Virus record (IMG/VR): IMGVR_UViG_3300027782_000025
Coordinates: 124,001-188,000 of that record
Source: a virus
Direction: 5' to 3' (one strand)
DNA: 64,000 nucleotides
Of this stretch, positions 27,649 through 42,216 are shown in pieces. The notes under the pieces are model-generated. The model worked only from the letters and a program-made list of their open reading frames with translations. It was not told the DNA's origin and ran no database searches. How positions within the stretch are numbered: position 1 is the stretch's first letter; every line of letters begins with the position of its first letter. Made by a program: the position numbers and the translations under genes.

Positions 27649-27971
27649 TCGCAATCAATTTCTTCATCTCTTGTCTTAAAAACAGAATTCTTTTTAGTGC
27701 TATGTAACTTCGCCAAATCATTCTCTGCTCTTATTCTTGGTGTAGCGACATTCCAAACATAATAATTTAATATATCGGTTTCAGTAGCATTACGTGGGCC
27801 GACATTTAGCATATGCCTAACGGTACGATCGCCGGTGCCAGGCACTTTCTCTATGATCTCTTGTATATTTTTGGGTTTTAGATTACAATATTGATTTAAT
27901 GTAAAATTGTTTGCTTCAAGTAGAGCATTGTAGGCCGGCTTTGCTATTTTATATGCGCCCCTCATTATCAT
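27645..27971 (-). CDS. Hypothetical 108-residue protein
   Basis: Protein of unknown function in a helical, polar sequence; the segment IIEKVPGTGDRTVRHML resembles a helix-hairpin-helix (GTGDRT), a non-specific DNA-backbone-binding element. It starts at ATG 27971, overlapping the dUTPase stop as ATGA, so it is translationally coupled to dUTPase. A small DNA-binding role is possible but only suggested by this one motif. Confidence 0.55.
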   Translation of the reverse strand: MIMRGAYKIAKPAYNALLEANNFTLNQYCNLKPKNIQEIIEKVPGTGDRTVRHMLNVGPRNATETDILNYYVWNVATPRIRAENDLAKLHSTKKNSVFKTRDEEIDCD

Positions 27972-28528
27972 TTTCTTCCGGTAGAGCCAAAACCACCATC
28001 ATTGCGCGCTGTGTGATCAACGACACCAGCAATGATCTCTGGTTTAACTATACATTCGAGCATTGCTTGGGCGATACGGTCACCGTGGTTTATAGTTTGG
28101 GCGATATCGGAATTGTTTTTTATAGAAATAAAGATCTCACCACGATAATCAGAATCAACGATCCCTACTTGGTTAGCTAGATTGAGACCATTTAAACCGA
28201 TAGAAGATCTGATATATAATTTTAACACTAAATCTGAAGCAAATGATGCTTTATATCCAGTCGGTATCAAAATGGTTTCGGTGGGATGAATATATAACCG
28301 AGACATTTCTGATTCTTCAGAAGTAATATCGTCTAGTGCTTCGATATACTTCCTTAAATTTGTAGCATATGCATTATATAAAAAATGCTTTTTTCTTCCA
28401 TTTAGTAAGCATTCAGACATCCGGCGTGTTAAACATGCTGATATGTCAAAACACGCTGAGCCGCTTGTCTCGAATTTCGGCAGCGGCAAATCGTTACCAT
28501 TTAGCCTTTCTAAAGTTATTTTATACAT
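27968..28528 (-). CDS. dut: dUTPase (trimeric type)
   Basis: 186-residue deoxyuridine triphosphatase, which removes dUTP and supplies dUMP for thymidylate synthesis. All five motifs are seen: ACFDIS (about residues 25-30), RSSIG (107-111), GIVDSDYRGE (122-131, with the catalytic Asp), GDRIAQ (149-154) and the C-terminal GGFGSTG (178-184). An insertion of about 40 residues between motifs 1 and 2 makes it longer than bacterial Dut (about 150). GAGGAG precedes the start. It is adjacent to thyX, which uses its product. Confidence 0.95.
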   Translation of the reverse strand: MYKITLERLNGNDLPLPKFETSGSACFDISACLTRRMSECLLNGRKKHFLYNAYATNLRKYIEALDDITSEESEMSRLYIHPTETILIPTGYKASFASDLVLKLYIRSSIGLNGLNLANQVGIVDSDYRGEIFISIKNNSDIAQTINHGDRIAQAMLECIVKPEIIAGVVDHTARNDGGFGSTGRK

Positions 28529-29318
28529 AAGGCTCCTCAGTAATCTCTACATATCCCTCATGTGGCCCTACATGTAAACCATGGAAAAAAGCGCCATATT
28601 TTGGCAGTAATAATTTATAAATCTTGTCAAAAACATACCGCATTTCCCATTCTGCATGGCGGGAAGTACGCATCAAAAGTATGTGTCTTAATTCTCGGAC
28701 ATTGACAGTAAAACCTATGTCATTAGCACACATATTAGGCAGGATTCGCCTGATAGAACTGGTTAATTTTTTCTTTTCGTCGAACCTTATAGTAGAATCG
28801 ATATCTAATTCATAATCTAATTCATCGTAACCGGCGCAGATATTCTCTAAGATAGCGTCGATCTTTTTTGAATGCTCTATATCTGGGCTAAGAACAACAC
28901 GTATAACATCCTCTCTGATGTAACGACCAGAATTTTGACTAAACGCAGTACCGACTCTGTGCCTAACAAGTTCATGGGTAAAAATCCTTGAACAGTCTCT
29001 AATAATAAAATTAAAGAATACATGTTCAAAGATACTACCATGCTTGACATCAAAACAGCCTTTAATATTATCCTTTATGGATCTTGTTCTAGTGATGTTT
29101 TTATTTGTCCCAACAACGAATGACTTGTAACATAACTTAGCATATACAGAACAAATAATCTCCATATCAGACACACCAGAAAATCTAGCTTCTTCGATCT
29201 CTCTAACAAATGGCTTGGCATCAGTATCTTCTAAATACTTTGTCAATTGATCTAAGTCCAATGTAGTTTGGCCTATAAGATAAGCGGTCGGAAACACGCG
29301 TTCGATTCGACTATTCAT
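28521..29318 (-). CDS. thyX: Flavin-dependent thymidylate synthase ThyX
   Basis: 265-residue ThyX that converts dUMP to dTMP with FAD and methylene-tetrahydrofolate. The signature RHR...S...RY is present as RHRVGTAFSQNSGRY (119-133), one residue longer than the classical RHRx7S form. The protein has the usual flavin- and nucleotide-binding regions (ITRTRSIKDNIKG around residues 74-86, ELRHILLMRTSRHAEWEMR near 209-227 with the substrate Arg). It overlaps dut by eight bases and follows the epimerase. Confidence 0.92.
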   Translation of the reverse strand: MNSRIERVFPTAYLIGQTTLDLDQLTKYLEDTDAKPFVREIEEARFSGVSDMEIICSVYAKLCYKSFVVGTNKNITRTRSIKDNIKGCFDVKHGSIFEHVFFNFIIRDCSRIFTHELVRHRVGTAFSQNSGRYIREDVIRVVLSPDIEHSKKIDAILENICAGYDELDYELDIDSTIRFDEKKKLTSSIRRILPNMCANDIGFTVNVRELRHILLMRTSRHAEWEMRYVFDKIYKLLLPKYGAFFHGLHVGPHEGYVEITEEPYV

Positions 29319-40250: not shown

Positions 40251-41042
40251 CTAAATACTCCTAAATAAATTATTAAACACTTCTAAAGCCAATTTAAACG
40301 TTTCTTTCTTTCCAATCGTACTGCCGAAACGCCTTCCAAGCGACGGTCTAAATATAGCATATTTACCACCATTCAAAATATGTTCATCTATAGCCTTAAT
40401 AATATTTGTAGCGCCTTGACCGACAGGATAAAAACCGGAACCAGTTTTAAAATCCCTAGCAATTATGCTATAAACACAAGTTTTAAGAGGCTCAAACCAA
40501 CGATCGTGAGGATTCTTATTGCTTTTCTCCATAAAACGGCAAGGATCATATGATAATTTAAACCTTTTGTGTGACGATAAAAACTTCTGAAGACTTTCTG
40601 TGTTATCTAGTAACATCGTATCAGTCATTTCTAACACCGGTACAAGCGACATCGACACAGCAAATGACGATAGTTTACTAATGAAATCATTGAAACTTGT
40701 CATATCGATAAATGATGATTTTTCGATTCCGATCTGAATAGCTTTGGCTTTAAAATATGATGCGATCGAAAGTTCTCTATCTATATCCTTTTGTACTATT
40801 GTTTTTCCATGTCCCAATTCTATCCTTACGATATTGATAGGCATATCTGCCAATTTTTTCTTAATTCTTTCTATGGTAATGTCCGGCAAAGAAGTTAGTG
40901 ATAATCCATTTATATTAAGTATAGATGCTGATTTGAATCCGCTGTCTCTGATAAGATCTATAGATTCATCGATGTTATCATGATGTTCGTCGATGCAGGC
41001 CGAGACTTCTAAATTATTACGATAGGTCAATGACGTGGTCAT
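40251..41042 (-). CDS. Sugar-isomerase/AP-endonuclease-like TIM barrel
   Basis: 263-residue protein with the xylose-isomerase-like TIM-barrel pattern: SACIDEHHDNIDESIDLIRD at the N-terminus, VRIELGHGKT, an E/D-rich strand (PVLEMTDTM about residue 140) and KLSYDPCRF in a position where metal-binding residues usually lie. The family includes sugar epimerases and endonuclease IV; without a full metal set I cannot say which. It overlaps the PurZ-like gene by 26 bases and is expressed with it. Confidence 0.6.
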   Translation of the reverse strand: MTTSLTYRNNLEVSACIDEHHDNIDESIDLIRDSGFKSASILNINGLSLTSLPDITIERIKKKLADMPINIVRIELGHGKTIVQKDIDRELSIASYFKAKAIQIGIEKSSFIDMTSFNDFISKLSSFAVSMSLVPVLEMTDTMLLDNTESLQKFLSSHKRFKLSYDPCRFMEKSNKNPHDRWFEPLKTCVYSIIARDFKTGSGFYPVGQGATNIIKAIDEHILNGGKYAIFRPSLGRRFGSTIGKKETFKLALEVFNNLFRSI

Positions 41043-42216
41043 ATTGTGGGCCAGTTCCAACAAGCGTTACAGGTATTCCGGCAACATCCTCAAGCATCTT
41101 TATGAAATCAAGGATCTTCGGGGTAAGTTTGTCTCTTGATGATGAAGCAAAGCAAGTCCAGTCGATGTAATTAGCAAAATTAAGAGCTAATTTGGTAGCG
41201 CCATTAACCATCACAGCCTCACGCAGTTGTCTTTTAGAAAAAGAAAATACTCTTCTGACCCTCTTTGTAACTGTCGTTTTCTCTTTTTCTCTTAAGATAG
41301 TTGCATATTCTAATGGCATCTCTGATTTTCTAGCTATTTCTTCCCAATCAATTTCGACCTGATCGTCATACCCTCCGCCAGAATATCCCTTCTGAACGCC
41401 TTCTTCAATCACATTACCGACTCTGATTGGATAAGGCCGAAGTACAAGGTAAACATCACCAAGGTACTTTGGAGAAATCCCCATATCGGCTAAGTTTTGA
41501 ACTGCAGAAGTGCCACGGCTAGTGCAAGTGGGGTATGAATGACCGTGGTTGATGTCAAGTGAGAATCCTTGTGCGCCTTCATGTAAAAATGTGAACGTAG
41601 CTCTAAGCACACAGTCAATATATTCGTGAAGAGCTTCACAATGGTGTTTACACATTACATTAAATGGATCAAAAAGCGACATGTCCTCTAATATGGCAGA
41701 AGGTCGTGTCCACGTTTTGCAAAATACAAATCTGCTTAACTCTTCATAATCCACTGCTAGCTTCGTCCCCGGCAGCCTTTGTATCTTGTCTGCTATGGCA
41801 GCACCACAACCTTGCATTGTGCTCGCTAGATGCTTAGTGCTGTCTTTGCCTTCATTTTCCCTTGCTCTGTGCTCTTCCGTGATTACCATAGCTCTTTGGT
41901 GAATAATAAGCCTATCTATACTTCCTGTTAATTCTACTTCTTTCATCAGCTGTAGTAAAGTAAATGCAGAAGAAGAACCCATGATTATCCAAGGATTGTA
42001 ATTTGGTAGCCATTTCCTCAAGATCGCAGCCGATGGCATCGCTTTTGCAATATATGCAGTACCGTCTACGTTAACAGCTGTATGACCAGCATTAGCCATG
42101 TTTGTATTTGATAAAAATTCGGGTCTGTATTTTTGTGCGAGATAAGAAGTTATCAGACCTTTACCAGTGCTGCCGAACTGACCATCAGTAACCACATTGA
42201 ACTTACCGCGTTGCAT
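41017..42216 (-). CDS. purZ: PurZ-like (2-aminodeoxy)adenylosuccinate synthetase
   Basis: 399-residue homologue of adenylosuccinate synthetase. PurA adds Asp to IMP; PurZ uses dGMP to make the precursor of 2-aminoadenine (base Z). Its P-loop reads GQFGSTGKG (residues 12-20): the PurA consensus WGDEGKG has a catalytic Asp, replaced here by Ser16, and Trp by Phe, as in PurZ enzymes of S-2L-type phages. Other family elements are kept: NAGHT with His45, HEGAQGFSLDINHG, GCGAAIADKIQ, an Arg-rich TTVTKRVRR segment that holds Asp, and VGTGPQYD at the end. It starts at ATG 42216, inside the preceding gene, and ends overlapping the TIM-barrel gene. Partners DatZ and MazZ are not in this window. Confidence 0.82.
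   Translation of the reverse strand: MQRGKFNVVTDGQFGSTGKGLITSYLAQKYRPEFLSNTNMANAGHTAVNVDGTAYIAKAMPSAAILRKWLPNYNPWIIMGSSSAFTLLQLMKEVELTGSIDRLIIHQRAMVITEEHRARENEGKDSTKHLASTMQGCGAAIADKIQRLPGTKLAVDYEELSRFVFCKTWTRPSAILEDMSLFDPFNVMCKHHCEALHEYIDCVLRATFTFLHEGAQGFSLDINHGHSYPTCTSRGTSAVQNLADMGISPKYLGDVYLVLRPYPIRVGNVIEEGVQKGYSGGGYDDQVEIDWEEIARKSEMPLEYATILREKEKTTVTKRVRRVFSFSKRQLREAVMVNGATKLALNFANYIDWTCFASSSRDKLTPKILDFIKMLEDVAGIPVTLVGTGPQYDHVIDLS

Follow-up and report, generated by a model that had tools for sequence, protein, structure and literature searches.

A PurZ operon with two unfamiliar partner genes in a T4-like jumbo phage: a plausible route to 2-aminoadenine DNA

The known phages with DNA that contains 2-aminoadenine (base Z) are small sipho- or podoviruses, which combine PurZ with DatZ and MazZ or with DutZ and DmtZ and copy their genomes with a Pol I enzyme (DpoZ) or a PrimPol (PMC12884076, PMC8599892, PMC8342488). 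The locus described here raises the question of whether a very different kind of phage also makes base Z. It lies in a stretch of 64,000 bases (hereafter the window), bases 124001-188000 of the 274,625-base viral record IMGVR_UViG_3300027782_000025. From the sequence alone, a first-pass annotation had recognized in it a PurZ-type synthetase gene, purZ, and suggested that the genome may use base Z. Our analysis strongly supports the identity of the enzyme, while genome use of base Z is plausible but unproven. It also draws attention to two conserved genes directly upstream of purZ which that annotation had overlooked, and which encode a protein of the nucleoside 2'-deoxyribosyltransferase (NDT) superfamily and a protein with a predicted deoxyribose-5-phosphate aldolase (DERA) fold.

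The boundaries of the purZ open reading frame (ORF) were exactly those first proposed, and its product matched both Pfam Adenylsucc_synt (E 2e-33) and PHROG 1211, '2-aminooxy adenylosuccinate synthetase' (PurZ; E 2e-63). The nearest solved structures are the PurZ proteins of phages phiVC8 (6FM1, 1e-43) and S-2L (7ODX), whereas E. coli PurA was a far weaker match in the structure database (~1e-17). The P-loop reads GQFGSTGKG, with Ser16 at the position of the catalytic Asp of PurA, and the NAGHT and EGAQG motifs are both found, as originally described. Asp occupies the Ser16 column in E. coli, Salmonella and archaeal PurA, including the archaeal-type PurA 5K7X, whereas Ser is kept in all PurZ-like proteins that we read, whether of viral origin or from metagenome-assembled genomes (MAGs); the Ser-for-Asp change is therefore not a matter of chance. 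The accompanying Phe in place of Trp, which had also been taken as a mark of PurZ, proved not to be diagnostic: this position holds F, W, Y, H or A among relatives of PurZ.

The same distinction holds over the rest of the protein. Eleven alignment columns were diagnostic, in that one letter is shared by four canonical PurZ proteins and a different one by four PurA proteins; the window protein is PurZ-type in 10/11 and PurA-type in 0/11. We also compared the protein, site by site, with the dGMP-, aspartate- and nucleotide-donor-contacting residues of S-2L PurZ (PMC8342488). The contacts kept are S16, N42, A43, G44, H45, S132, T133, R147, Q216, C231, T232, R265, V266 and R321, together with the TTVT loop (314-317), and two are changed (G130 to Ala and Y203 to Thr). 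The donor pocket (N346, F347, N349, G389 and P390) is of the ATP/dATP type seen in phiVC8 and S-2L, unlike that of PurA and PurZ0, which carries Asp.

In a quick-search maximum-likelihood tree built from 104 proteins (with support given by the Shimodaira-Hasegawa-like approximate likelihood-ratio test, SH-aLRT), PurA (98) was split from a group made of PurZ0, canonical PurZ and jumbo-phage proteins (98), PurZ0 being the first branch on that side. The window protein stands on the PurZ side, as the first reading had anticipated, and not with PurA: it belongs to a jumbo-phage clade (16 rows, support 98; 38 rows and support 87 in a wider set) which is closer to canonical PurZ than to PurZ0. The long branch of one row (L062), which entered the tree with intein letters, is to be disregarded. 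Judged from its sequence, the window PurZ is thus bracketed by two families, the known members of which function in Z-DNA synthesis. Full-length orthologs occur in independent jumbo phages with ~50-56% identity to it. The placement in the PurZ clade, the PurZ-specific residues and the PurZ-type donor pocket together strongly support the assignment of this ORF to PurZ, not PurA.

The first-pass annotation had also proposed a T4-like contractile phage, and the record indeed is that of a T4-like jumbo phage: it encodes a Gp23 capsid protein, Portal_T4, a T4-type terminase, a contractile sheath and a gp25 wedge protein, as well as a gp32-like protein, RecA and ThyX. No family-B polymerase was found in the record, and a T4-type Pol B replicase was rejected. 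The candidate for the replicase, a Pol III alpha, is encoded by two ORFs (record 212351-213751 and 215018-217741, locus L010) that are separated by three small genes; the split recurs at the same place (profile position 98/99) in several relatives, and the end of the N-terminal part leaves no room for a split intein. A 399-residue PolA-like protein was dropped as a DpoZ candidate because it aligns over the polymerase part only, DpoZ being a Pol I with a 3'-5' exonuclease; it shares with DpoZ the HDS motif C, which is not DpoZ-specific (PMC8599892). Elsewhere in the record, the T4-type portal gene (L008:2637-5147, record 116637-119147) carries an intein splicing domain, and the G+C content of bases 1-30000 is 47-49% against ~39% for the remainder, which could reflect either an early region or a foreign segment.

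The NDT and DERA-like genes lie upstream of purZ on the same strand, as overlapping or abutting genes (Table 1). In independent jumbo phages the operon keeps its order (the 256-residue protein, the DUF115/MptE-like protein, NDT, the DERA-like protein, the small coiled protein, PurZ, the TIM barrel and the 175-residue protein), and its enzyme genes share roughly 40-55% protein identity. The DERA-like gene is tied to purZ across ~30 viral contigs. When viral contigs were scanned with the DERA-like family alone, purZ lay just downstream in all 16 loci obtained (16/16), four of which are near-copies of this phage. With the DUF115-like gene as query, 26 loci were obtained; the DERA-like gene is present in 25 of them, and the flank includes purZ in 23; in two of the three others (L025 and L041, the third being L221) purZ is found elsewhere on the contig. 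In the sister clade B, another NDT-like protein (PF15891/PF05014) takes the place of NDT, directly before the DERA-like gene in 11/11 loci, and purZ is within the flank in nine of these. The DERA-like gene is thus nearly purZ-specific, which the NDT gene alone is not. A DnaB scan aimed at purZ-negative relatives returned only short or already known contigs. Finally, the purZ genes of two jumbo phages (L053:8642-11104 and L062:6869-10507) carry an in-frame intein-like insert at the same site after NAGH, and that of L062 a second one before CTSR; both sites are conserved substrate-binding motifs, which suggests that purZ is a kept, conserved gene.

Table 1. The purZ operon and nucleotide-metabolism genes of the window (positions are those of the window).
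Feature	Position	Strand	Remarks
dUTPase-family protein with insertion	27968..28528	-	motif III of canonical type; adjoins ThyX gene
ThyX thymidylate synthase	28521..29318	-	nucleotide-metabolism context, outside operon
Conserved downstream operon member, 175 aa	39595..40122	-	
AP_endonuc_2 / xylose-isomerase-like TIM barrel, 270 aa	40251..41063	-	directly downstream of purZ, overlapping
purZ, PurZ-type 2-amino-adenylosuccinate synthetase, 399 aa	41017..42216	-	ATG start; Ser16 for PurA Asp
Small coiled conserved protein, 98 aa	42203..42499	-	flanked by DERA-like gene and purZ; nearly all clade A operons have an ortholog
Predicted DERA-fold TIM-barrel protein, 233 aa	42496..43197	-	deoxyribose-5-phosphate-aldolase-like; most constant purZ partner
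NDT/DNPH1-superfamily protein, 129 aa	43166..43555	-	predicted nucleoside or dNMP N-glycosidase/transferase fold
MptE/DUF115-like protein, 329 aa	43563..44552	-	conserved upstream operon member
Conserved operon member, 256 aa	44554..45324	-	without Pfam match

PF05014 is matched by 8/8 NDT orthologs, and the AlphaFold (AF2) model of the window protein (predicted local distance difference test, pLDDT, 92.8) resembles BcmB, MilB, DNPH1 and nucleoside deoxyribosyltransferases in Foldseek searches. Tyr5 and Glu76 are invariant in the family and an Asp is present in 7/8 members; sequence and model agree in assigning an NDT/DNPH1-superfamily fold with catalytic Tyr and Glu. The 233-residue protein was modelled as an eight-strand barrel (pLDDT 81.7) whose best Foldseek matches are DERA or DERA-type aldolases (template modelling score ~0.7-0.75). 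Pfam and PDB sequence and profile searches gave no match and hhalign of its family to E. coli DeoC gave no signal, so that the DERA-like assignment is one of predicted structure. A DERA-like P.G motif is retained on strand 3, as is PIKVSGN on strand 7. In the TIM-barrel family encoded downstream of purZ, PF01261 is matched by 8/9 members.

We propose, with a rough probability of 0.62, that PurZ is functional and that the phage DNA probably bears Z, the NDT and DERA-fold enzymes replacing DatZ and MazZ and replication being of the Pol III alpha type. While the fold assignments and the genetic linkage are results described above, the catalytic steps that follow are all inferred. PurZ, as its family and residue map suggest, would convert dGMP and aspartate, with ATP or dATP as donor, into N6-succino-2-amino-dAMP (dSMP); host PurB and kinases would then take dSMP to dZTP, and a Pol III alpha-type replicase encoded by the phage would polymerise 2-aminoadenine into DNA. 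The NDT-like enzyme most likely cleaves a purine deoxynucleoside monophosphate (dNMP), of which dAMP is the probable one, to give the base and deoxyribose-5-phosphate, or else transfers deoxyribose-5-phosphate to Z. The DERA-fold protein would take up this sugar phosphate, pulling the reaction forward. The likely purine dNMP substrate is suggested by analogy with DmtZ, the NDT-fold enzyme of PurZ0 phages, which converts dAMP into adenine and deoxyribose-5-phosphate and can transfer the latter to base Z; in these phages DutZ clears dATP and dGTP (PMC12884076). PurZ itself may burn dATP as energy donor, as dATP is accepted by S-2L PurZ, and Pol III-type replication does not exclude Z, since E. 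coli equipped with the S-2L Z-cluster acquired Z in its chromosomal DNA (PMC8342488). A wider proposal is more tentative, and we place it somewhat below even odds: Z-DNA genomes would be common to the whole clade of T4-like jumbo phages, the cassette that makes them (PurZ, an NDT-type N-glycosidase/transferase and a new DERA-fold enzyme, with neither DatZ, MazZ nor DutZ) would be the third to have been assembled independently, and a Pol III alpha-type enzyme would copy them instead of DpoZ.

Several results weigh against Z-DNA in this phage. DatZ and MazZ had already been reported as missing from the window, and the whole-record search for them and for dpoZ that the first-pass annotation had advised found none: with known DatZ, MazZ, DpoZ, PrimPol and other Z-phage proteins as phmmer queries, only two dUTPases matched in the whole record, where MazG (PF03819), the DatZ-type HD domain HD_3 (PF13023), DUF5664 (PF18909), a full DpoZ and the S-2L PrimPol were likewise not found and Pol III alpha is present. 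The first-pass interpretation is in this way supported in part, for the identity of PurZ but not for its expected partners. The record may be a fragment, so missing partner genes are no proof of absence. A PurB gene was sought in the record and not found either; in known Z phages PurB is usually host-supplied. Neither of the two dUTPases is assignable to DutZ. The second (record 82053-82487, outside the window, adjoining a thymidylate kinase gene) has the motif III IDATF, not IDSDY; it was considered as DutZ for the short hairpin before this motif and dropped, as eukaryotic and viral dUTPases are nearly as short, and its best phage matches, which are not known Z phages, further weakened the case. 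The window NDT lacks the dAMP-fitting Asp12 of DmtZ, so its substrate could differ, and with only weak similarity to DmtZ of Ghobes and Wayne (hhalign probability 21%) it was not retained as a DmtZ. Moreover, 9/27 loci with this NDT family have neither purZ nor the DERA-like gene nearby, and we rejected NDT as a purZ-specific marker. In the DERA-fold protein, Arg161 (Arg in nearly all homologs) occupies the predicted position of the strand-6 Schiff-base Lys, as set from predicted strands and motifs and not from superposition, which makes the chemistry of this protein uncertain. Lastly, the collection that we searched (50,697 phage records) holds no cultured phage of this clade.

Could the same observations be explained otherwise? 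dZMP may be made while only part of A gives way to Z: if a dATP-specific phosphohydrolase is missing and the Pol III-type replicase is unselective, virion DNA would be a mixture of A and Z. The absence of DatZ, MazZ, DUF5664 and DpoZ from the record would fit such an outcome, and about one plasmid adenine in four was replaced in E. coli carrying the S-2L Z-cluster (PMC8342488); however, the operon holds other candidate dNMP-handling genes that are conserved with purZ, and dATP is usable by S-2L PurZ itself, and we regard partial replacement as unlikely, though it deserves to be kept in mind. Alternatively, dSMP or dZMP could be a stage on the way to something else, built with the help of the NDT, DERA-fold and xylose-isomerase-like proteins: a purine modified further, a free-base or sugar-modified nucleotide, or a nucleotide for signalling or anti-defence. 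The bulk DNA would then not be Z-DNA. The neighbours of purZ would suit glycosidic-bond cleavage and sugar-phosphate handling rather than simple pool depletion, the usual Schiff-base Lys is missing from the DERA-fold protein, and a further TIM barrel and the DUF115-like gene are co-conserved. Against this stand the position of PurZ between families that, as far as their members are known, work in Z-DNA synthesis and the demonstrated Z-nucleotide activity of an NDT enzyme in PurZ0 phages (PMC12884076), which make this explanation less likely still.

Two simpler explanations bear on purZ itself. An ordinary PurA-like auxiliary metabolic gene, raising AMP synthesis in infection, would share the fold and the Pfam family, but the Ser at the catalytic Asp position, the lack of any PurA-type diagnostic column, the PurZ donor pocket and the tree placement led us to reject it as highly improbable. 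That purZ is decayed or fragmentary and without function is suggested by nothing more than its unusual context, and is hardly credible for a full-length ORF with intact catalytic residues, independent full-length orthologs at the identities given above and a kept operon. A functional PurZ in a phage whose DNA probably bears Z is thus the reading that we prefer.

In the course of the searches, PurZ was also encountered in other settings. Ser-type PurZ-like genes occur on Bacillota and Mycoplasmatota MAG contigs, of cellular or prophage origin (L123-L141, L143, L144, L147, L148, L150-L154, L156 and L158). In the L127 protein a NUDIX domain, a possible source of dGMP from dGTP, is joined to the N-terminus of PurZ, and a similar N-terminal extension is present in the proteins of L123, L139, L140 and L158. 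In another giant-phage clade, three records (behind L047, L048 and L050; 436, 427 and 363 kb) encode PurZ together with an HD_3 (DatZ-type) domain and a full PolA, and a Lyase_1 (PurB-type) gene is present as well in two of the three; they are candidates for complete Z sets in phages of 360-440 kb. The cultured, T4-sized Flavobacterium phage MaF61 (L036, 167,814 bases) carries, besides an annotated adenylosuccinate lyase, a divergent purZ-like gene of the Ser type. DUF6378 proteins adjoin purZ in two other phages (L027:9574-9984 and L040:11095-11415) and might be a further nucleotide-clearing partner. Adenylosuccinate synthetase transcripts from Lake Baikal were set aside, as they belong to a pithovirus-like protein.

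PurZ as such is already known, and a 2026 survey of 53,887 viral genomes found it in seven phage groups; our search of the open-access literature turned up no jumbo phage with a reported PurZ. What is new for PurZ is the phage type, the partner genes and the replicase. If the proposal is true, Z-DNA would extend to large contractile phages, the first Z-myoviruses, with the first Z-genomes copied by a C-family replicase and a third solution for keeping A out, for which two new candidate enzymes are named. A PurZ operon alongside a Pol III-type replicase also bears on a wider question, namely whether a Z-selective polymerase is required for Z-DNA in the first place.

How does this system compare with those already described? 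Among the 50,697 phage records, the closest cultured match to the window PurZ is the purA product of Bacillus phage vB_BpsS-140 (36.7%), and the DERA-like gene has no match. The Bacillus protein also has Ser in the P-loop, and its genome encodes a dUTPase and an adenylate kinase; it differs in that its purA branches separately, its genome is small and no NDT or DERA-like genes are annotated beside purA. The DERA-fold protein resembles DERA/DeoC in predicted fold, best Foldseek matches and the two strand motifs, but has no detectable sequence similarity to E. coli DeoC and carries Arg at the predicted Schiff-base Lys. The window NDT shares with DNPH1, MilB, BcmB and the nucleoside 2'-deoxyribosyltransferases the fold, the invariant Tyr and Glu and, in 7/8 members, the Asp, and is set apart by its short length (129 aa) and a DWTxHG motif. 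In the PurZ0 phages Wayne and Ghobes, which encode DutZ and DmtZ (PMC12884076), a purZ-family gene likewise lies near an NDT-fold gene and dUTPase-family genes are present in the genome; there the PurZ0 donor pocket is PurA-like (Asp), whereas here it is PurZ-type, and here the NDT lacks Asp12 and is no ortholog of DmtZ, the operon has no dUTPase, a DERA-fold gene is added and Pol III alpha stands in the place of DpoZ-1. With respect to phiVC8 and S-2L, this genome is that of a T4-like jumbo phage and not of a sipho- or podovirus, without datZ, mazZ or DpoZ, and its PurZ has ~36-40% identity to theirs (multiple alignment), with an internal insert before EGAQG; yet it is alike in fold, in the Ser for Asp, in nearly all residues of the dGMP pocket, in the PIRV and TTVT loops and in an ATP/dATP-type donor pocket.
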